Assembly: GCA_007695015.1 (NCBI GenBank)
Contig: REEN01000029.1
Span: 62,001 to 126,000 of the forward strand
DNA: 64,000 bases
Reading direction: 5' to 3'
Source of the DNA: Marinilabiliales bacterium
GTDB taxonomy: Bacteria > Bacteroidota > Bacteroidia > Bacteroidales > PUMT01
Part shown: positions 1 to 24,380 of the stretch, one piece after another
How positions within the stretch are numbered: the first letter of the stretch is position 1
Layout: every line of letters starts with the position of its first letter
Made by a program: the position numbers and the translations under genes
The notes under the pieces: generated by a model
The model's database searches: none
What the model was told of the DNA's origin: nothing
What the model saw: the letters and a program-made list of their open reading frames with translations, nothing else

Positions 1-1219
1 TTTTGTCTATTTTGAAAAGGGTACTAATATAAAGACCCGGCAGTCCGTATTTGTCAATCACTTCCTTGCCTTTGCCTGCCCTGTATGCCCCGGCTACCCT
101 GTTCTCGTCATCGTCCCAGATGAACAGCTGGTGGTAGTAAAGGTCAAATTCGTCTATATCGATCTTACGGTTGGTTCCTTCGCCAACATCCCTGAAAGTG
201 ATCTCCCTTAATCTGCCTATCTCGTTGGTGATATTGGGAATGATCACTGAGGGTGCACAATAAACCGAAAAGTTTCCGCTTTTGAAAAGCAGGAAATCTG
301 AGAGGCTGGTGATCTCATCCAGCATTTTTGTGGCAGGAACAGCATCTATTACAGGCTCTTCAGTGGAAGATCTCCGGATGGTATAGGAGAAGAATTTTTT
401 CACTTCAATGCTGGTGCCCAGGGAATAGGTGCGTGCCCTAAGATAACGTCCGTACCTGTAGGTGTCTGTAAACTCATGCTGATCTTTAACAGGGACGGGG
501 TTCCCGATCCTTAATTTGATAATCTTGTTCCTCTTGTTCAGAAGCTCTGATGGGAGTTTTATGGTCCTGAGCACGGGATGGATCATTCCCAGAAGATGGA
601 AGATCCTGCTGTTGGTTCCCTGGAAGTAAACAGGCACTACCGGGACCTGAGCCCGTTTTATGAATTTGATAGCTGAACTCTGCCATTGCCGGTCGGTTAC
701 ACCTGTCCATTCATCATTGTAAACAGAAACCTCCCCGGCAGGGAATATGCCTAACGGAGAACCTGACCGCAGATGGGTCAGCGCCTCTTTTAACCCTGAT
801 ATGCCTGAGCCGGCATCTCTTAGTTTTTCAAAAGGGTTGCCGGAAATAATGTGTTCTTTTATGGGCTCAATCCGGCTCAAAAGGAAATTTGCCATTATTC
901 TGAAATCTGCACGGCGTTTTGAAAGCGCGTGCAACAGCAGAAGTCCGTCAATTCCCCCGTAAGGGTGGTTTGATACGGTTATGAACGGACCCCCGGCGGG
1001 TATCCTCTGAAGCTCTTCATCGCTCACTTCATATTTTATCTCAAGTTCGTCAATCAGTGCGTCGATGAACTTTATGCCATCCTTGTCCCATGTTTTTGAG
1101 TAGACTTTGTTAATTCTGTTGAACCGTAGCAGGAGTATAAGCAACCTGGCAATGCTTTCTCCTCCGAGTTTGTTCATTTTGCCTGACCTGAGCAGATCCT
1201 CCGTTTTTATTAGTTGCAT
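1..1219 (-). CDS. Bifunctional acyltransferase (PlsC-like + GNAT-like), OlsF/GlsAB type, 3' end missing
   Basis: The reading frame is open from an ATG at 1219 to the left edge, so at least 406 codons are present and the C-terminus is missing. Residues about 80-230 look like a PlsC-type glycerolipid acyltransferase: an NHPYGGIDG motif near residues 84-92 (His and Asp separated by five residues) and a later FPAGEVS motif. From about residue 280 the sequence resembles the OlsB-type N-acyltransferase of the GNAT superfamily, with acidic residues in a D-x-D-x-x-D-x-Y-Y-H stretch and a GAYRAG motif. Fusions of this kind (OlsF) make ornithine or glycine lipids in Bacteroidota by N-acylating the amino acid and then O-acylating it. 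Substrate is not readable from sequence. It starts 14 bp after the LysE-family gene, so the two are probably cotranscribed. Confidence 0.8.
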   Translation of the reverse strand, partial: MQLIKTEDLLRSGKMNKLGGESIARLLILLLRFNRINKVYSKTWDKDGIKFIDALIDELEIKYEVSDEELQRIPAGGPFITVSNHPYGGIDGLLLLHALSKRRADFRIMANFLLSRIEPIKEHIISGNPFEKLRDAGSGISGLKEALTHLRSGSPLGIFPAGEVSVYNDEWTGVTDRQWQSSAIKFIKRAQVPVVPVYFQGTNSRIFHLLGMIHPVLRTIKLPSELLNKRNKIIKLRIGNPVPVKDQHEFTDTYRYGRYLRARTYSLGTSIEVKKFFSYTIRRSSTEEPVIDAVPATKMLDEITSLSDFLLFKSGNFSVYCAPSVIIPNITNEIGRLREITFRDVGEGTNRKIDIDEFDLYYHQLFIWDDDENRVAGAYRAGKGKEVIDKYGLPGLYISTLFKIDK

Positions 1220-13029: not shown

Positions 13030-13920
13030 TTAATTAAACACAAAAACCGGCTTCTTTGTTTCAAACAGCAATTTCTTTGCCAAACTTGGATTGAAAAGCC
13101 TGTAAAATATATTTCTTTTTTTGTGGGTTAGCGCAATCATCTCAATATCATTTGCTTCTACAAATAAATTGAGGTCGGTTACAATATCATCACTTTTGAT
13201 ATTATGACATTCAATTGACAGCACCTTTTTGTTCTCTATAAGTTTGTGCTTCATCTCCGACATTTTGCTTTCCTTATCCTCTTTTGACGAACCTGTCTCG
13301 AAATGGACACAAAATATTTTCAGGCTGTAGCCCGACATGATTGCAGAGAGGCTGCCAATGGCCTGGTAATCGGAATCATCAAAATCGGTGGCATATAGCA
13401 GCCTGATATTTCCCTTCTCCCTGAGCTTCGCGTCCCGGGTCACCAGCAGTACAGGAATCCCTGAAATATCGATGACTCTTGAGGCAACAGATCCGAGAAC
13501 CTCATTGGCCCGATCGCCGTGACCTCTTGTCCCGATCACAATGAAATCAGGATCATAAGCTTCAATAATGCTCTCAATCTCCTCACCGGGTTGTCCGGCA
13601 ACCACTCCGGTTTCAACCTCCACCTCTTTGAGGTTCTTTAGCTTTGCATATTTCTTAAGCTTTTTGGCAAACTTTTTCATCTCCTTTTTTGAGTTTTCCT
13701 CAAGCTCACGGAATACCTCTGCCATGTTCGACTGGTATGTAAATGCATCGGGGAAGGCCATGGCATCGATCATAGGATTGAAGAATGCATGAAACAGTTT
13801 CAGTCCGGCACCCGTGCGTGAAGCCAGGTGCATTGCAAAGTAGCATGCGTTTAATGAGTACCCGGAGAAATCTACCGGCACCAGTATACGGTTGATTTTT
13901 TTGCTGACGTTATTGTTCAT
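13030..13920 (-). CDS. Universal stress protein with two UspA domains
   Basis: A 296-residue tandem UspA protein. Domain 1 (residues about 9-160) starts NRILVPVDFSGYSLNA and has the complete nucleotide-binding loop GTRGHGDRANEVLGSVASRV, so ATP binding is likely. Domain 2 (about 165-296) lacks that glycine-rich loop; its equivalent is LTHKKRNIFYRLFNPSLAKKL, so it is probably non-binding. Tandem Usp proteins act in stress or growth-arrest adaptation. It is divergent from the large ATP-grasp pair, with a TATATTTG box about 65 bp upstream on its own strand. Confidence 0.92.
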   Translation of the reverse strand: MNNNVSKKINRILVPVDFSGYSLNACYFAMHLASRTGAGLKLFHAFFNPMIDAMAFPDAFTYQSNMAEVFRELEENSKKEMKKFAKKLKKYAKLKNLKEVEVETGVVAGQPGEEIESIIEAYDPDFIVIGTRGHGDRANEVLGSVASRVIDISGIPVLLVTRDAKLREKGNIRLLYATDFDDSDYQAIGSLSAIMSGYSLKIFCVHFETGSSKEDKESKMSEMKHKLIENKKVLSIECHNIKSDDIVTDLNLFVEANDIEMIALTHKKRNIFYRLFNPSLAKKLLFETKKPVFVFN

Positions 13921-14139: not shown

Positions 14140-17100
14140 ATGGAAGACAATGAGGTCAGGGGAGACAGCAATATCAACAAGTTGCTGGAAGAGAGAAGAG
14201 AAAGGCTGAAGGAACTTGCATGCATTAACCAGACAACGGCAATTCTCAGGGAGGGTAAGCCTGTAGAAGAGACACTCCACCAGGTAACCCTCATACTGAC
14301 CACCGCATGGCAGTATCCGGAATACACCGTTTCCCGTATAATATACGAAGGCAAGGAATACCGAAGTCCCCGATTCAGGGTAACAGAGTGGCTGCAATCA
14401 CAAAGCTTCAGGACGCTCGACGGGAATGAAGGGACAATTGAGGTGTGCTATACAAGGGAGTTTGCCACCCTTGACGAGGGTCCTTTCCTGGAGGAGGAGC
14501 GTCATCTGATCGATAATATTGCCAGCCTGCTGACAGGTTACATAAATAGCTACAAAGCAAAGACGCTGCTGTTCAGGGCAAAAAGAAAAGAGAGGCAGGA
14601 GAAGAAGCAGGCTGAAGAGAAGGAGAGGATAAGCAGCAGCCGGCAGCTTCTGCAGCGGTTCCTCAACAAGCATAATGCAGAGCGCGACCTGTTCCATGAT
14701 CTGATGCCGTTTAAGGTAAAGGAGATACTTCTTGTTGCCACACTTTACGACGCGTACAGTATAGAGAAGGAGGGGCGTTTTTCCGACCATATGCTCGGAC
14801 AGTACCACCAGCTCAACCTTACCTCCCTGCCCAGGGTAACAGGTGTATCAAAGCTTGAGGAGGCACTTGATGAGCTGGCCACTAAACATTATGATATGGT
14901 TATCGTAATGATGGGCATGGACAAGCAGACACCGCTGGTTTTGAGCAAAAGGATGAAGGAGGAGTTTGCCTATATTCCCGTATTCTTTCTTCTTAACAAT
15001 AACAGGGATATTGAGACATTTGAGGAATCACCCGCCAGGTATGGTTTCGTGAACCGTGTATTTGTATGGAACGGAGACTCGAAAATGTTCTTCGCCATGG
15101 TTAAGCTGCTGGAGGACCAGGTCAATGTAGAGAATGATACTGCCATGGGATTTACCAAGGTGATACTTCTTGTAGAGGATTCGCCAAAGTATTACTCCCG
15201 TTACCTTCCAATGATATATTCTATAGTTCTTGAACAGACCCGGCACCTGATCGAAGATGTCAATACCGACGAGCTTTACAAGGTGCTGAAGCTGAGGGGC
15301 CGGCCTAAAATACTTCTTGCATCTACCTGGGAGGAGGCGATGGATATATTTACCCGCTACAGGGAATATGTACTTTGTGTAATTTCCGATGCCCGCATCC
15401 CCCGTAAGGGGAAGATCGACCCCATGGCAGGTGTTGAACTGATAAAATATGTCAAGAGCCAGGTTGAAAACCTTCCATCCATGCTGCAATCGGCCGATCC
15501 TGAATACCAGAAAATGGCCCATGAGCTGAAAGTCAGCTTTATAAACAAGAATTCTGAAACACTTCTGCAGGACCTGAAAAGCTTTATTACCTATTTCCTT
15601 GGATTTGGTCATTTTGTTTACCGCGACAACGAGGGGCGGCAGATCGCCGTGGCTAAGTCAATGCGGGAGTTTGAAAGCTACCTGAAAACGGTTCCCGAAG
15701 AGTCTCTTGTCTACCATGCAGTTAAGAACCATTTTTCCCTATGGCTGATGGCAAGGGGGGAGGTTAAGATTGCCCGTATAATCAACCCCCTTAAGATAAA
15801 TGATTTCAGCAATCCGGCAGCGATGCGCGAGTTTCTTATCAACATTATCTCCAAGCACCGTAATGAGCAGGATATGGGGAAGATTGTCAATTTCGAGGAG
15901 TCGGCCATCCTGGACGAGTCAAATATAGTCTCTTTTGCTGCCGGATCACTTGGGGGAAAGGGACGGGGACTTGCATTTGTAAATTCTCTGATCTACAGTT
16001 TCAGGTTCTCGGAGCTTATAGAGGGTATAAATGTGCGCACTCCGGTTACCGGTATAATTGGCACCGAAGAGTTTGATGTTTTCCTGGAGATTAATAAGCT
16101 GTATGATATAGTTTACAAAGAGGAGAGCTATGACAGGATAAAAAAATTGTTCCTTGAGGGGAATATCAGCTACAACCTTGAAAAGAAGCTGCGGATATTC
16201 ATGAACGTGGTAAAACGTCCGATTGCCATCAGGTCCTCAAGCCTTTTTGAGGATTCGCTTATGCAACCATTCTCGGGGATTTTCGGGACCTGGCTCCTTC
16301 CGAACAATCATCCCAGTTTTGATGTAAGGCTTCAGCAGGCTATGGATGGCATCAAGCTGGTATACGCATCAATATTCTCAGACGATTCCAAAAGATATTT
16401 TGAATCTATCAATAACCGGATTGAAGAGGAGAAGATGGCAATTGTCCTGCAGGAGGTCGTCGGCAACAGGTCGGGTGACAGCTATTATCCCCACATAAGC
16501 GGCACGGCACAGTCCCATAACTATTATCCGGTAGCACATATGAAACCTGATGAAGGCTTCAGTGTTATGGCAATCGGACTGGGCCATTATGTAGTAAGAG
16601 GTGAGCAGGCATGGAGGTTCTCGCCGGTATATCCCGATCTTGAGATCTCCTCGCCGAAGGATCAGTTTAAAAATTCCCAGTTGCATTTTTACGCCGTGAA
16701 CATGGCCAGGCCGGAGGTTAATCTTCTGGAGGGGGAGGATGCGGGACTTATAAGGCTTGATATTTCAGAAGCTGAGAAGCACGGTAACCTTAAGCATTGT
16801 GCCTCGGTATATGACCGCGACAGTGACCGGATGGTGCCGGGTATTGAGACGGCAGGACCGAGGGTGGTTAATTTTTCCAACATCCTTAAATATGATTACA
16901 TCCCTCTTGCAAAGACCATAAGCGTTACCCTTGATGTTGTGAGGGAAGCGCTCGGATGTCCGGTTGAAATAGAATTTGCGGTTGACCTGAAAAAAGATGA
17001 GAAGGGCCTGCCATCGTTTTACCTGTTGCAGATCAAGCCGCTTTTCGGCAGCAGCAGCGATTATGCCATTGACATGAAGACAATTGACAATAGTAAAGTA

Positions 17101-17601
17101 ATACTCAGGTCGGGAAAGAGCATGGGCAACGGGAAGATCGATTATATAGGCGACATGGTATGTATAAAAAGGGATAAGTTCGACAGGCTTAAAACCCGGG
17201 AGATGGCTGCAGAGGTTGATAGGATAAACTCAGCCATGATCAGGGGAGGAAGGAAATATGTACTTATAGGACCCGGCCGGTGGGGCACCCGCGACCGCTT
17301 CATAGGCATTCCGGTTACATGGCCGCAGATATCAAATGCTGCAGTGATAGTCGAAATGAGCCTGGAAGGGTTTCCTCTCGATGCTTCACTGGGGTCTCAT
17401 TTTTTCCATAATCTCACTGCAATGAATGTTGGCTATTTTTCGGTGAATCACACAGATACTGATGATTTTTTCAGAGAGGAGATGCTTGATCAGGGTGAAA
17501 AAATTGACGAGACTGAATTTTTCATACATGTAAGATTTCCTGAGCCGTTACATGTTCTTATGGACGGAAGACAGGGGATTGCACTGATAATAAAACCATA
17601 A
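14140..17601 (+). CDS. Large GAF / double receiver-like / PEP-synthase-type ATP-grasp protein (paralogue A)
   Basis: A 1153-residue protein. Residues about 1-145 resemble a GAF sensor, followed by a charged coiled coil (about 146-185). Two receiver-like domains follow: the first (about 197-335) lacks the phosphoacceptor Asp (VIVMMGMD). The second (about 340-500) keeps an acidic pair E346-D347, a candidate phospho-Asp D417 (VISDARIP) and a Lys at 470. From about 597 comes a PEP synthase/PPDK-type ATP-grasp module: GSLGGKGRGLAF, AIRSSSLFEDS (about 695) and EIEFAVDL...LQIKPL (about 942-965). The normal phosphohistidine swivel and PEP-binding barrel are absent. The C-terminal 150 residues form a different domain with GPGRWG (about 1043) and SHFFHNLT (His 1087). 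The catalysed reaction is unknown. Its paralogue starts 7 bp downstream. Confidence 0.75.
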   Translation: MEDNEVRGDSNINKLLEERRERLKELACINQTTAILREGKPVEETLHQVTLILTTAWQYPEYTVSRIIYEGKEYRSPRFRVTEWLQSQSFRTLDGNEGTIEVCYTREFATLDEGPFLEEERHLIDNIASLLTGYINSYKAKTLLFRAKRKERQEKKQAEEKERISSSRQLLQRFLNKHNAERDLFHDLMPFKVKEILLVATLYDAYSIEKEGRFSDHMLGQYHQLNLTSLPRVTGVSKLEEALDELATKHYDMVIVMMGMDKQTPLVLSKRMKEEFAYIPVFFLLNNNRDIETFEESPARYGFVNRVFVWNGDSKMFFAMVKLLEDQVNVENDTAMGFTKVILLVEDSPKYYSRYLPMIYSIVLEQTRHLIEDVNTDELYKVLKLRGRPKILLASTWEEAMDIFTRYREYVLCVISDARIPRKGKIDPMAGVELIKYVKSQVENLPSMLQSADPEYQKMAHELKVSFINKNSETLLQDLKSFITYFLGFGHFVYRDNEGRQIAVAKSMREFESYLKTVPEESLVYHAVKNHFSLWLMARGEVKIARIINPLKINDFSNPAAMREFLINIISKHRNEQDMGKIVNFEESAILDESNIVSFAAGSLGGKGRGLAFVNSLIYSFRFSELIEGINVRTPVTGIIGTEEFDVFLEINKLYDIVYKEESYDRIKKLFLEGNISYNLEKKLRIFMNVVKRPIAIRSSSLFEDSLMQPFSGIFGTWLLPNNHPSFDVRLQQAMDGIKLVYASIFSDDSKRYFESINNRIEEEKMAIVLQEVVGNRSGDSYYPHISGTAQSHNYYPVAHMKPDEGFSVMAIGLGHYVVRGEQAWRFSPVYPDLEISSPKDQFKNSQLHFYAVNMARPEVNLLEGEDAGLIRLDISEAEKHGNLKHCASVYDRDSDRMVPGIETAGPRVVNFSNILKYDYIPLAKTISVTLDVVREALGCPVEIEFAVDLKKDEKGLPSFYLLQIKPLFGSSSDYAIDMKTIDNSKVILRSGKSMGNGKIDYIGDMVCIKRDKFDRLKTREMAAEVDRINSAMIRGGRKYVLIGPGRWGTRDRFIGIPVTWPQISNAAVIVEMSLEGFPLDASLGSHFFHNLTAMNVGYFSVNHTDTDDFFREEMLDQGEKIDETEFFIHVRFPEPLHVLMDGRQGIALIIKP

Positions 17602-17608
17602 CAAAATT

Positions 17609-20600
17609 ATGATCAAACAGATAAGAGACATTGCTGATCCGGGTAATTATGAGTTCCATCAAACCTCGTTCAGCAATCTTATGCAGATACGTATACAGAA
17701 CGTTCTTCTCATTTGCAGCAACTACGATGCATTCATGCTTGAGGAAGACGGCCGGATAGATGAGCAGATATTCAATGAGTATGTCTCACTTAACCTGAGT
17801 ACCCCGCCAAGGTTTCTTAAGGCAAGTGGCGGTACCGATGCATTCGGTATCCTTGAGGAGGAAAAGATCGATCTTATAATTTCCATGTTCAGTATCGGAG
17901 GGGAATCGGACATCTTTAACCTTGCCAAACAGATTAAATCGGAACATCCGGGCATACCTATCGTGGTACTGACCTATTTCTCGCGTGAGGTATCAATGAA
18001 ACTGGCTAATGAGGATCTGTCAGCCATCGATTATGTATTCTGCTGGCTGGGTAATGCCGACCTTCTTCTTGCCATTATCAAGCTGATAGAGGATAAGATG
18101 AATGCCGAAAATGATGTTGAGACGGGCGGGGTCCAGACTATATTGCTGGTAGAGAATTCTATCCGGTATACATCCAGCTATTTGCCAAACCTTTATAAGA
18201 TTATTCTGAAGCAGTCGCGCGATTTTGCAAGGGAAGCACTCAATGCACACCAGAAGAACCTCCGGATGAGAGGAAGGCCCAAGATCCTGCTGGCAACGAA
18301 TTATGAAGAGGCGATTGACATCTACAAGAGATACAAGAATAACCTTCTGGGGGTCATATCAGACATATCCTACAGCAGGAAAGGCAGGCGTGACCCGCAG
18401 GCAGGAATCCGTTTGTGCCGCAAGGTTAAATCGGATGATCCCCACATGCCCGTTCTTCTGCAGTCCTCCGACATGGAAAACCACGTCCAGGCAGAGGAAT
18501 TGAAAGCTGGGTTTATTCACAAGTATTCCAAGACCCTCTCCATTGAACTGAGGAACTTTGTCATAAGGCAGTTTTCTTTCGGCGAGTTTATTTTCAGGGA
18601 CCCCGACACCAAGGAGGAGGTCTGCAGGGCTGCCGATCTGCAGGCAATGCAGCAGGCAATACTTACCATACCCGAAAAGGTTCTATATTTCCATTCAAGC
18701 AACAATCATTTCTCCAAATGGCTGAACGCCAGGGCGCTGTTTCCTATTGCGCGGATGTTTAAACATCTGAAGGTTGATGACTTCGATAGTATCGAGGAGG
18801 TCAGGAGATATATCCATACCGCCATATCAAGCTTCAGGTCCAGCAAGGGTCGCGGGGTTATTGCCAAATTTGACAAAAACAGCTTTGATGAATACCTGAT
18901 GTTCTCGCGCATAGGCGAAGGTTCGATAGGCGGTAAGGCGCGGGGGCTGGCATTTATTAATTCGATACTTAACGAGCATGGTCTTTTTACCAAATTCCCT
19001 GGGGCTATTGTTACCATACCCCGTACAGTGGTTCTGAGCACAGATATTTTTGATGAGTTCATGGAGACCAATGACCTCTATAGATTTGCAATATCCGGCG
19101 TTTCGGATGAAGAGATACTGCAGCGGTTTGTCGACGCAAGTCTCCCGGGACGGCTCCACCAGGATTTGTATGCCTTTATCTCTGTGGTGCGCAACCCGGT
19201 AGCAATCCGTTCTTCCAGTAAGCTGGAGGACAGTCACTACCAGCCGTTTGCAGGGATCTACTCAACGTACATGATACCCAGGGTGGAGGACAGTACCAGG
19301 ATGATAGGTATGCTGACCGATGCGATAAAGTCCGTTTATGCATCGGTCTATTACAAAAGCAGCAGGGCTTATATGACCGCTACTGCCAATGTTATAGACG
19401 AGGAGAAGATGGGGATAATTCTCCAGGAAGTATGCGGTACCAGGAACGGTGACAGGTTCTATCCGACCATCTCAGGTGTTGCCCGTTCGATCAATTTCTA
19501 TCCGATCGCGCCCGAGAAGCCTGAGGACGGAATAGCAAGCATTGCCTACGGGCTTGGCAAGCTTATAGTCGACGGAGGCATTTCACTGAGGTTTTCTCCG
19601 AAATATCCCAAAAAGATACTTCAGCTCTCCTCTCCCGACCAGGCGCTGAGGGAAACCCAGAAGAAATTCTATTCCCTTGACCTGAATGTTGACAGCTTCA
19701 GACCTTCTACTGATGATAGCGTCAACATACTGAAGCTTGGCATAAAGGATGCGGAAAATGATCCTTCGTTCAGGTTCGCAGCCTCAACATATGATTATGA
19801 GTACAATATGCTCAGAGAGGGTATGGGCCAGCAGGGCAGAAAGGTGGTGACATTTGCCAATGTCCTTACGCATAGCACATTTCCATTGGCTGAAATACTG
19901 CAGGAACTACTTGATTCAGGGCAGCATGAAATGAATAATCCTATCGAGATAGAATTTGCGGTCGATCTTGACACACCAAAGGATGAACCCGGTATTTTTT
20001 ATTTTCTCCAGATTAGGCCGATCGTGCACGGAGAGCAGAAGGTGGATGTCAATTTTGACAGGATTGACAAAAACAATACGATTGTTTACTCGGAATCGGC
20101 CCTTGGGTACGGAACCATTACCAATATATCCGATTTCGTATATGTTAAGCCTGATAAGTTCAACCCATCAGAGAACAAGGATATTGCACTGGAGATTGAA
20201 AAGATAAATGAAAATTTTATCAAAGAAGGGCGAAACTACGTGCTTACAGGGCCCGGACGGTGGGGATCGAGTGATCCCTGGTTGGGGATACCGATAAAAT
20301 GGCCCCAGATATCAATGGCCAGGGTGATAATTGAATCGGGTCTGGATAACTACCATATTGATCCGAGCCAGGGTACTCATTTTTTCCAGAATTTAACCTC
20401 ATTCAGGGTGGGATATTTTACCATAAACCCCCATTTCCGGGAAGGGTTATATGATGTGGACTTCCTGGATGGGCAGCCGGCATATTATGAGGATACACAT
20501 GTACGTCATGTGAGATTTGAACAACCTTTTAAGATACAGATTGACGGCCGGCATAACAAGGGGGTTATTTTCAAGCCGCAACCGGTAAAAGAGGGTGCCC

Positions 20601-20638
20601 GGGATATGACAGGAATTATAACGGGCAAAGGTGACTAG
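17609..20638 (+). CDS. Double receiver-like / PEP-synthase-type ATP-grasp protein (paralogue B)
   Basis: A 1009-residue paralogue of the preceding gene, starting 7 bp after it. It lacks the GAF domain and coiled coil. The first receiver-like domain (from about residue 30) has no phosphoacceptor Asp (LIISMFSIGG). The second keeps Glu182 but has Asn183 in place of the second acidic residue, and has candidate phospho-Asp D252 (VISDIS) and Lys305. The ATP-grasp module shows GSIGGKARGLAF (about 436), AIRSSSKLEDS (about 531) and EIEFAVDL...LQIRPI (about 780-800). The C-terminal domain has GPGRWGSSDPW (about 880) and THFFQNLT (His 924), aligned with paralogue A. The two probably work as a complex or sequential pair (inference). 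Reaction unknown. Confidence 0.75.
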   Translation: MIKQIRDIADPGNYEFHQTSFSNLMQIRIQNVLLICSNYDAFMLEEDGRIDEQIFNEYVSLNLSTPPRFLKASGGTDAFGILEEEKIDLIISMFSIGGESDIFNLAKQIKSEHPGIPIVVLTYFSREVSMKLANEDLSAIDYVFCWLGNADLLLAIIKLIEDKMNAENDVETGGVQTILLVENSIRYTSSYLPNLYKIILKQSRDFAREALNAHQKNLRMRGRPKILLATNYEEAIDIYKRYKNNLLGVISDISYSRKGRRDPQAGIRLCRKVKSDDPHMPVLLQSSDMENHVQAEELKAGFIHKYSKTLSIELRNFVIRQFSFGEFIFRDPDTKEEVCRAADLQAMQQAILTIPEKVLYFHSSNNHFSKWLNARALFPIARMFKHLKVDDFDSIEEVRRYIHTAISSFRSSKGRGVIAKFDKNSFDEYLMFSRIGEGSIGGKARGLAFINSILNEHGLFTKFPGAIVTIPRTVVLSTDIFDEFMETNDLYRFAISGVSDEEILQRFVDASLPGRLHQDLYAFISVVRNPVAIRSSSKLEDSHYQPFAGIYSTYMIPRVEDSTRMIGMLTDAIKSVYASVYYKSSRAYMTATANVIDEEKMGIILQEVCGTRNGDRFYPTISGVARSINFYPIAPEKPEDGIASIAYGLGKLIVDGGISLRFSPKYPKKILQLSSPDQALRETQKKFYSLDLNVDSFRPSTDDSVNILKLGIKDAENDPSFRFAASTYDYEYNMLREGMGQQGRKVVTFANVLTHSTFPLAEILQELLDSGQHEMNNPIEIEFAVDLDTPKDEPGIFYFLQIRPIVHGEQKVDVNFDRIDKNNTIVYSESALGYGTITNISDFVYVKPDKFNPSENKDIALEIEKINENFIKEGRNYVLTGPGRWGSSDPWLGIPIKWPQISMARVIIESGLDNYHIDPSQGTHFFQNLTSFRVGYFTINPHFREGLYDVDFLDGQPAYYEDTHVRHVRFEQPFKIQIDGRHNKGVIFKPQPVKEGARDMTGIITGKGD

Positions 20639-22725: not shown

Positions 22726-23325
22726 ATGTCATTTAAACTTCCATCACTAAAATATGATTATAATGCTCTTGAGCCGCACATAGATGCGCGTACCATGGAG
22801 ATACACCATACCAAACATCATGCCGCCTACACAAACAATCTGAATGCGGCAATTGAAAACAGCGATATGGCGGGAATGAGCATTGAAAAGATAATGGCAG
22901 GTATCTCAAAATATCCTGTTGCAGTAAGGAATAACGGAGGCGGGTTTTATAACCACAACCTTTTCTGGGAGATCATGTCTCCGAACGGCGGGGGTAAACC
23001 TGAAGGAAAACTTCTTGATGCAATTACTTCCTCATTCGGGTCATTCGGTGCTTTCAGGGATGAATTCAGCAGGGCTGCCGCCACCAGGTTCGGATCGGGC
23101 TGGGCATGGCTGGTAAAGACGGGTAGCGGACTTGTTGTCAGTTCTACACCCAACCAGGATAACCCGCTGATGGATATCGCCGATGTAAAGGGGACTCCAA
23201 TACTCGGAATTGATGTATGGGAGCACGCATATTACCTGAATTATCAAAACAGGCGACCGGATTATATTGAAGCATTCTGGAATGTAGTGGACTGGAATAC
23301 GGTGTCTGAAAAGTTCCTTGGTTGA
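22726..23325 (+). CDS. Superoxide dismutase, Fe/Mn family (cytoplasmic)
   Basis: A 199-residue SOD without a signal peptide. The metal ligands are visible: His in [10 protein letters not shown], His in NHNLFW, and Asp/His in [10 protein letters not shown]. The residues that separate metal types (Gly in NGGGFYNH and Gln in PNQDNPL) follow the Mn-type or cambialistic pattern. It disproportionates superoxide to oxygen and hydrogen peroxide. A second, exported SOD of the same family lies convergent 320 bp downstream. A strong terminator follows. Confidence 0.95.
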
Positions 23326-23645: not shown

Positions 23646-24380
23646 TTATGCGCTTTTGAGTTTTTCAGCCACTGCATTCCAGTTGATTACCTCCCAGAAG
23701 GCTGATATGTAGTCGCCTCTGCGATTCTGATACCTTAGGTAATATGCGTGCTCCCAGACATCTATGCCAAGAACGGGAACACCCTGTTCACCGGCCGGGA
23801 TAATGTCCATCAGCGGGTTATCCTGGTTGGGTGTGGATGTTACCTTAAGCCTCCCTTCGCTCGCGATGAGCCACGCCCAGCCCGATCCGAACCTGGTGGC
23901 AGCTGCATTCGAGAACAGTTCGCGGAATTTTTCAAATGACCCGAATGAACCGTTTATTGCCGACATCAGTTCACCTGAAGGGCGGCCGCCACCGTTGGGC
24001 GACATGACCTCCCAAAAGAGATTATGGTTGAAATGCCCTCCACCGTTGTTACGTACAGCCATATTGAAGGAAGATATATTCCTGTTGATATCCTCGAGAG
24101 TCATCTCTTCTGAACCTGTGCCTTTCAGCGCATTATTGAGATTGTTCACATATGCCTGGTGGTGCCTGGTGTGGTGGATATTCATGGTTTGGGCGTCAAT
24201 ATGGGGCTCAAGGGCGTCATATGAGTAAGGCAGGGAAGGAAGGCTGAATTTACTGCCTGCCGGTTCCTCCTGGCTTAACCGATTAGCTGCGTAAGTTCCT
24301 TGTCCTTTTGCCATAAGTGGAGCCGATATTATCCCGCCCAGCCCCAACAGTCCTTTTTTGATAAATGTTCTTTTGTCCAT
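23646..24380 (-). CDS. Superoxide dismutase, Fe/Mn family, exported
   Basis: A 244-residue SOD with an N-terminal export sequence of about 33 residues. It begins [17 protein letters not shown] and continues through a hydrophobic stretch to an Ala-rich end. The KRTFIKKG part resembles a Tat signal with Lys-Arg in place of the twin Arg. The mature part has all metal ligands ([26 protein letters not shown]) and the Mn-type Gly/Gln residues ([15 protein letters not shown]). It would protect the periplasm from superoxide. It is convergent with the cytoplasmic paralogue, to which it is clearly similar throughout the mature domain, suggesting duplication followed by gain of an export signal (inference). 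Confidence 0.92.

Follow-up and report, generated by a model that had tools for sequence, protein, structure and literature searches.

Which function is served by two large adjacent genes whose products join receiver domains to an ATP-grasp module of the PEP synthase type? Genes A and B, which raise this question, were found in a stretch of 64,000 nucleotides from a Marinilabiliales bacterium, referred to below as the window. The initial annotation described them as adjacent paralogues of 1153 and 1009 aa, 7 bp apart, sharing a PPDK/PEP-synthase ATP-grasp module and a common C-terminal domain. This description is borne out. Both open reading frames are real, the gap between them is indeed 7 bp, and their products share 38% identity. 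Furthermore, PPDK_N (PF01326) is matched by A with an E-value of 1.1e-30 and by B with an E-value of 2.8e-38, and the alignment confirms the common C-terminal domain.

Table 1. Position of the genes, domains and candidate residues of A and B in the window, and loci of the sister family
Feature	Position	Strand	Description or basis
Gene A	14140..17601	+	1153 aa; N-terminal extension/coiled coil, pseudo-receiver, receiver, helical linker, PPDK_N ATP-grasp, swivel-like C-terminal domain
A N-terminal extension (GAF and coiled coil in the initial annotation)	14140..14700	+	no Pfam support for GAF
A receiver 1, degenerate (pseudo-receiver)	14713..15135	+	limits by alignment to B
A receiver 2 (E346/D347, D417, S451, K470)	15151..15612	+	limits by alignment to B
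A D417, candidate phospho-acceptor Asp	15388..15390	+	alignment
A helical linker	15652..15939	+	borderline DUF5752 match, 23.2 bits for a cut-off of 23
A PPDK_N ATP-grasp, residues 603-973	15946..17058	+	Pfam
A swivel-like C-terminal domain	17062..17598	+	alignment to B
A H1087, candidate phosphohistidine	17398..17400	+	alignment
Gene B	17609..20638	+	1009 aa; pseudo-receiver, receiver, helical linker, PPDK_N ATP-grasp, swivel-like C-terminal domain
B receiver 1, degenerate (pseudo-receiver)	17690..18112	+	model and alignment
B receiver 2 (E182/N183, D252, S286, K305)	18128..18586	+	structural and sequence alignment
B D252, candidate phospho-acceptor Asp	18362..18364	+	alignment
B PPDK_N ATP-grasp, residues 439-815	18923..20053	+	Pfam and structural alignment
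B swivel-like C-terminal domain, residues 812-991	20042..20581	+	predicted structure, structural alignment
B H924, candidate phosphohistidine in S-x-G-[ST]-H-F-F	20378..20380	+	alignment
Sister family	L077:5641-8811, L095, L096:6374-9565, L097-L099, L075		

Domain organization of A and B

Besides PPDK_N, Pfam gives weak receiver matches, and a sequence search of the PDB with A and B returns weak receiver matches only. Neither protein has a match in PADLOC at E<=1, on which ground a role in anti-phage defence was dropped. A divergent universal stress protein with two Usp stretches according to Pfam is encoded upstream of gene A (13030-13920). Two similar genes, superoxide-dismutase-like by eye, are found on opposite strands about 320 bp apart (22726-23325 and 23646-24380).

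Conservation was analysed on an alignment of 82 sequences longer than 900 aa, i.e., A, B and 80 relatives from the retrieved loci, from which fragments, short forms and the sister family (see below) were left out. The ATP-grasp residues K443, R534, E780, E782 and Q801 (B numbering), which we take to be catalytic, occur in both A and B and do not vary in any of the 82 sequences; the ATP-grasp motifs are thus intact, as had been proposed.

The two receiver-like domains initially assigned to each protein are found again, but only the first fits the initial assignment of both as pseudo-receivers. Receiver 1 lacks the acidic pair at positions 36-37 (mostly Ser or Cys, then Ser), has Met or Thr at the acceptor position and is devoid of the conserved Lys after strand 5. 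In receiver 2, E182, D252, S286 and K305 are each found in 82/82 sequences, while position 183 is Asp in 68 of them and Asn in 14, B of the window having Asn and A having Asp. Judged from these residues, receiver 1 is a pseudo-receiver and receiver 2 keeps a receiver active site. A GAF domain had also been attributed to A only. Residues 1-187 of A have no Pfam match to GAF at E<=1; such a domain is possible there.

The C-terminal domain and the missing barrel

The residues G883-R884-W885-G886, D889, S920, G922, H924, F925, F926 and N928 of the C-terminal domain are constant in 82/82 sequences. H924 is the sole invariant His of the whole alignment, followed by H362 (81 sequences) and H967 (74). 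The initial annotation considered a phosphohistidine swivel as not recognisable here, and this is true for sequence profiles and for Foldseek: PF00391 has no match in A and B at E<=1 (its sole match in the genome being a PPDK-like protein on C73), hhalign of the domain against the swivel profile finds no match (probability 0.2), and Foldseek with the C-terminal model gives nothing at E<=0.001, the best value being 0.07. With the whole B model, receivers rank first in Foldseek.

Structural alignment with VIA-align leads to the opposite result. The AlphaFold2 model of B has a mean pLDDT of 82.7 and a pTM of 0.69, and its C-terminal domain predicted alone reaches 90.5 and 0.89, respectively. The whole model aligns with rifampin phosphotransferase 5hv3 (Z 25.3, rmsd 5.2, 380 residues aligned), PEP synthase 2ols (Z 24.9, rmsd 4.5, 359 aligned, 420..991 on 7..467) and PPDK 1dik (Z 17.3, rmsd 4.7, 349 aligned, 430..991 on 7..511). 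These alignments reach past the ATP domain, which alone (5hv6_A) aligns over 277 residues. For the C-terminal domain alone, each of the first 13 rows is a domain of the swivel or phosphohistidine type. These rows come from rifampin phosphotransferase (756-867), from PPDK (381-510) and the matching segment of further PPDKs, from a pyruvate kinase (its extra domain) and from two enzyme I proteins; we assume that these ranges are swivels. The best row, 5fbu (rmsd 3.1, 112 residues aligned on 756..867), has a Z of 6.9, and a Z below 8 is middling by itself. The VIA-align rows, the whole-model alignment, the strand order and the invariant His together make it likely, on the basis of the predicted structures of B, that A and B end with a swivel domain that sequence profiles and Foldseek miss.

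The PEP-binding barrel, also reported initially as not recognisable, is absent from A and B: Pfam finds no match to it in either protein, and both end after the swivel-like domain.

Glutamate dehydrogenase genes in the neighbourhood

No glutamate dehydrogenase (GDH) gene adjoins A or B in the window, which explains why the link described here escaped the initial annotation. When the genes of 40 loci carrying relatives were clustered with those of the window, one neighbour family, read by eye as GDH, was found in 25 of the 41 loci. A member of this family used as a query retrieved two genes of the own genome, whose nearest solved structures are glutamate dehydrogenases. GDH is also the commonest neighbour family of 120 loci (L061-L180), with 56 occurrences compared with 13 for the next family. 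By tblastn, it is found anywhere in the fetched stretch in 57 of these 120 loci and not in the other 63, many loci being short.

A sample of 296 genomes of Bacteroidota was searched, with at most two candidates scored per genome in the family search and at most five in the GDH search. Leaving out the own genome, the matches listed comprise 49 full-length relatives in 39 genomes; among these, GDH lies within 1.5 kb of 39 relatives and within 3 kb of 42, and 31 of the 39 genomes have a relative at 1.5 kb or less from GDH. If the two genes of the window are included, the figures among the matches listed become 39/51 genes and 31/40 genomes. The chance of finding a GDH within 1.5 kb is about 0.6% per gene, taking three GDHs in 3.8 Mb. 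For ten of the 49 relatives, the nearest listed GDH is beyond 1.5 kb or, in two of these cases, GDH is found on other contigs only. According to our own reading of the match list, the 31 GDH-linked genomes span 10 family codes.

The arrangement of GDH and family gene varies. Among 67 GDH genes with a gap below 800 bp, 24 are downstream on the same strand, 22 upstream on the same strand, 19 upstream on the opposite strand and two downstream on the opposite strand; this variation points to proximity having been selected repeatedly, although relatedness inflates such counts. Conversely, most GDHs do without a family gene, since among the matches listed GDH is found in 249 of the 296 genomes and a full-length relative in only 40, the own genome included.

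Pairing of the paralogues with GDH isozymes

The GDH genes with a family gene at less than 600 bp were assigned to types according to the motif SDS or SGPDG that follows GxGNV in the coenzyme region, motifs that presumably denote E. coli-NADP-type and C. symbiosum-NAD-type enzymes, respectively. In the own genome, each type is represented by one GDH; the two lie on another contig with a single gene, named dprA-like by eye, between them (L246:6705-10743). The first is nearest to 4fcc, then to 3sbo (named NADP-specific), and the second to 1bgv, by a small margin over NADP enzymes; 1bgv is, we assume, the NAD-specific enzyme of C. symbiosum. As these genes lie on another contig, the GDH partners of A and B are predicted, not observed.

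In the A clade, the adjoining GDH is of the SDS type in 7/7 typed cases, one being untyped. For the nearest B relatives, defined by a tree distance below 1.25 to B of the window (a cut-off chosen after a first typing), it is of the SGPDG type in 8/8 typed cases, again with one untyped. Just beyond this cut-off (1.26-1.31), L091, L154, L164, L168 and L176 have the other GDH type upstream. Four have both types, B lying between them in L091, L164, L168 and L176. More distant B relatives, from Bacteroides and others, adjoin 15 SGPDG and 7 SDS enzymes. In a third clade, L083, L084 and L086 have an SGPDG-type GDH before the first copy, an SDS-type GDH before the second and then a further GDH, and L087 and L088 have one copy between two GDH types. 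As far as these sequence motifs indicate, paralogue and isozyme pair cleanly in the A clade and among the nearest B relatives, but not across the whole family.

A site specific to partner GDHs was sought by comparing 50 typed GDHs, of which 48 adjoin a family gene and two are the own ones (11 untyped being dropped), with 30 GDHs picked from 220 genomes without a family match. Pro43 (numbering of the own NADP-type GDH) was the only position to pass (48/50 versus 8/30), and it is not plausible as a modification site.

Distribution of the pair and related families

The initial annotation raised the questions of whether the two genes are always adjacent across Bacteroidota and whether their products act on each other. 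In a survey of 60 genomes, the own included, sorted by hand on identity and several of them incomplete, 56 have a match: 31 have both types, 9 only A and 16 only B, and the two are adjacent in 21 of the 31. The pair is thus not obligatory. Mutual action of A and B was rejected because each occurs alone and because the GDH type found beside A relatives differs from that beside the nearest B relatives.

A distant sister family, whose members are mostly 913-1065 aa long and share 25-29% identity with A or B in the part that matches, carries PPDK_N and the same C-terminal motif. The motif, including its His, is also found in the 10 sister proteins and two receiver-less short forms that were aligned. 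A nucleotidyltransferase domain scores above cut-off in 3/3 scanned sister proteins (L077, L096, L075); those of L076 and L079 (778 and 776 aa) are without this tail, and in those of L098 and L099 its motif has apparently been lost. The typed members adjoin a third GDH type and, among the matches listed, 7 of 11 sister genes lie within 1.5 kb of GDH, as do 9 of 11 short forms. Two short forms beside GDH (L096:4626-6380, 584 aa; L097:6154-7872, 572 aa) consist of the ATP-grasp and swivel-like parts only.

Other arrangements were observed. In L067, L068 and L093, A-type proteins with long N-terminal extensions (1285-1550 aa) adjoin a LuxR-like regulator gene recognised by eye. In L084 (7722-9797), histidine-kinase-like and LuxR-like genes, also recognised by eye, lie between two GDH/family pairs; a kinase cluster is found in 5/41 loci and a regulator cluster in 9/41. 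Three family stretches surround one GDH in L154, labelled Candidatus Delongbacteria, possibly through transfer or mis-binning.

Proposed function and alternatives

The conserved GDH neighbourhood of their relatives suggests that A and B control GDH, even if a gene neighbourhood carries no information on who acts on whom. We consider it rather probable that they are dedicated GDH regulators built on a PEP-synthase-type phosphotransferase, which would act through a swivel phosphohistidine. A signalling or regulatory phosphotransfer, outside pyruvate metabolism, had already been proposed and gains support from the missing barrel, the intact receiver and the GDH linkage in relatives.

The PPDK_N domain would bind Mg-ATP, as its family and intact residues indicate, and the invariant His of the swivel-like domain (H924 in B, H1087 in A) would receive a phosphoryl group, as the fold and conservation of this domain point to. 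As there is no PEP barrel, this group would then pass to a protein, the most likely acceptors being GDH and the Asp of the protein's own receiver 2. This receiver, plus the N-terminal extension in A, may couple phosphotransfer to a signal. The activity of the cognate GDH would be set in this way, A controlling the E. coli-NADP-type and B the C. symbiosum-NAD-type enzyme, a pairing taken from the neighbourhood of their relatives.

A more specific mechanism can be put forward tentatively, as possible rather than probable: a His-Asp relay free of any histidine kinase and held in one polypeptide, running from the ATP-grasp/swivel His to the receiver-2 Asp or back from it, could control the cognate GDH by modification or binding. 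Bacteroides fragilis GDH is reportedly inactivated in a reversible way in vivo (Yamamoto, Saito and Ishimoto, in 1987), and such an internal relay, if true, could explain this inactivation. The family is present in the gut genera Bacteroides, Parabacteroides and Phocaeicola.

It is unlikely that A and B are instead phosphorelay outputs, in which histidine kinases would phosphorylate receiver 2 and the ATP-grasp/swivel part would make or consume a GDH-linked small molecule, e.g., from 2-oxoglutarate or glutamate, leaving GDH untouched. The PPDK_N relatives with a known reaction do act on pyruvate, rifampin or glucan, receiver 2 looks functional, and kinase-like and LuxR-like genes separate two copies in a few loci such as L084. 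However, no domain that could bind an acceptor, as the PEP barrel does, was found in A and B, and a shared metabolite does not require different GDH types for A and the nearest B relatives.

Even less probable is a transcriptional or stoichiometric regulator that would sense nitrogen and control GDH expression or assembly by binding, the ATP-grasp and the His serving as a switch and not as a transferase. Receivers are typical of regulators, and the divergent arrangement of family and GDH genes (19/67) is common for regulator-target pairs, but Pfam finds no DNA-binding domain in A, B or the eight relatives scanned, and the catalytic-type residues are invariant in 82/82 sequences. Lastly, an ordinary PEP synthase-like enzyme converting pyruvate to PEP, near GDH by operon history, is suggested by the PPDK_N domain but very improbable. 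This identity was rejected because the barrel is absent and because a separate, PPDK-like protein of the genome combines PF01326 with PF00391. NCBIfam also speaks against it, its highest PEP synthase score being 57.5 bits for a cut-off of 883 (TIGR01418, 26.4 for 739.75).

Comparison with known systems

GDH joins carbon and nitrogen metabolism, and a GDH-linked family made of phosphotransfer parts makes the question of its control directly testable. The post-translational control of glutamine synthetase is well known. A narrow term search of open papers, limited to titles and the beginning of abstracts, gave nothing on the present domain arrangement and, within the same scope, no dedicated GDH-modifying enzyme. 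With the regulators proposed here, the PEP-synthase module would gain a new role, in signalling to a protein.

A and B resemble PEP synthase and PPDK by their intact ATP-grasp residues and by the C-terminal domain of B, which is covered by the 2ols alignment; they differ from them by the absence of the PEP-binding barrel, by a probable swivel too divergent for PF00391 and by the fusion to receivers. The likeness to rifampin phosphotransferase (RPH) lies in the succession of ATP-grasp and C-terminal swivel-like domain (5hv3 and 5fbu alignments), whereas no rifampin-binding middle domain is seen in A and B; the NCBIfam model of RPH, NF041857, scores 11.9 bits for B against a cut-off of 999, and A is not listed. 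Receiver 2 shares with Spo0F and PorX its fold (1nat, Z 12.6, rmsd 2.4, 116 residues aligned) and its active-site residues. Unlike them, A and B pair this receiver with a degenerate one and with an ATP-grasp/swivel part, not with an output or kinase domain.

GlnE and GlnD control nitrogen enzymes by means of nucleotidyltransferase activity. The comparison is drawn because a nucleotidyltransferase domain is found in the scanned members of the distant sister family, which adjoins a third GDH type. The likeness would be one of idea, a nitrogen enzyme being the presumed substrate of a modifying enzyme. In A and B this domain is missing, and their target would be GDH, not glutamine synthetase or PII.
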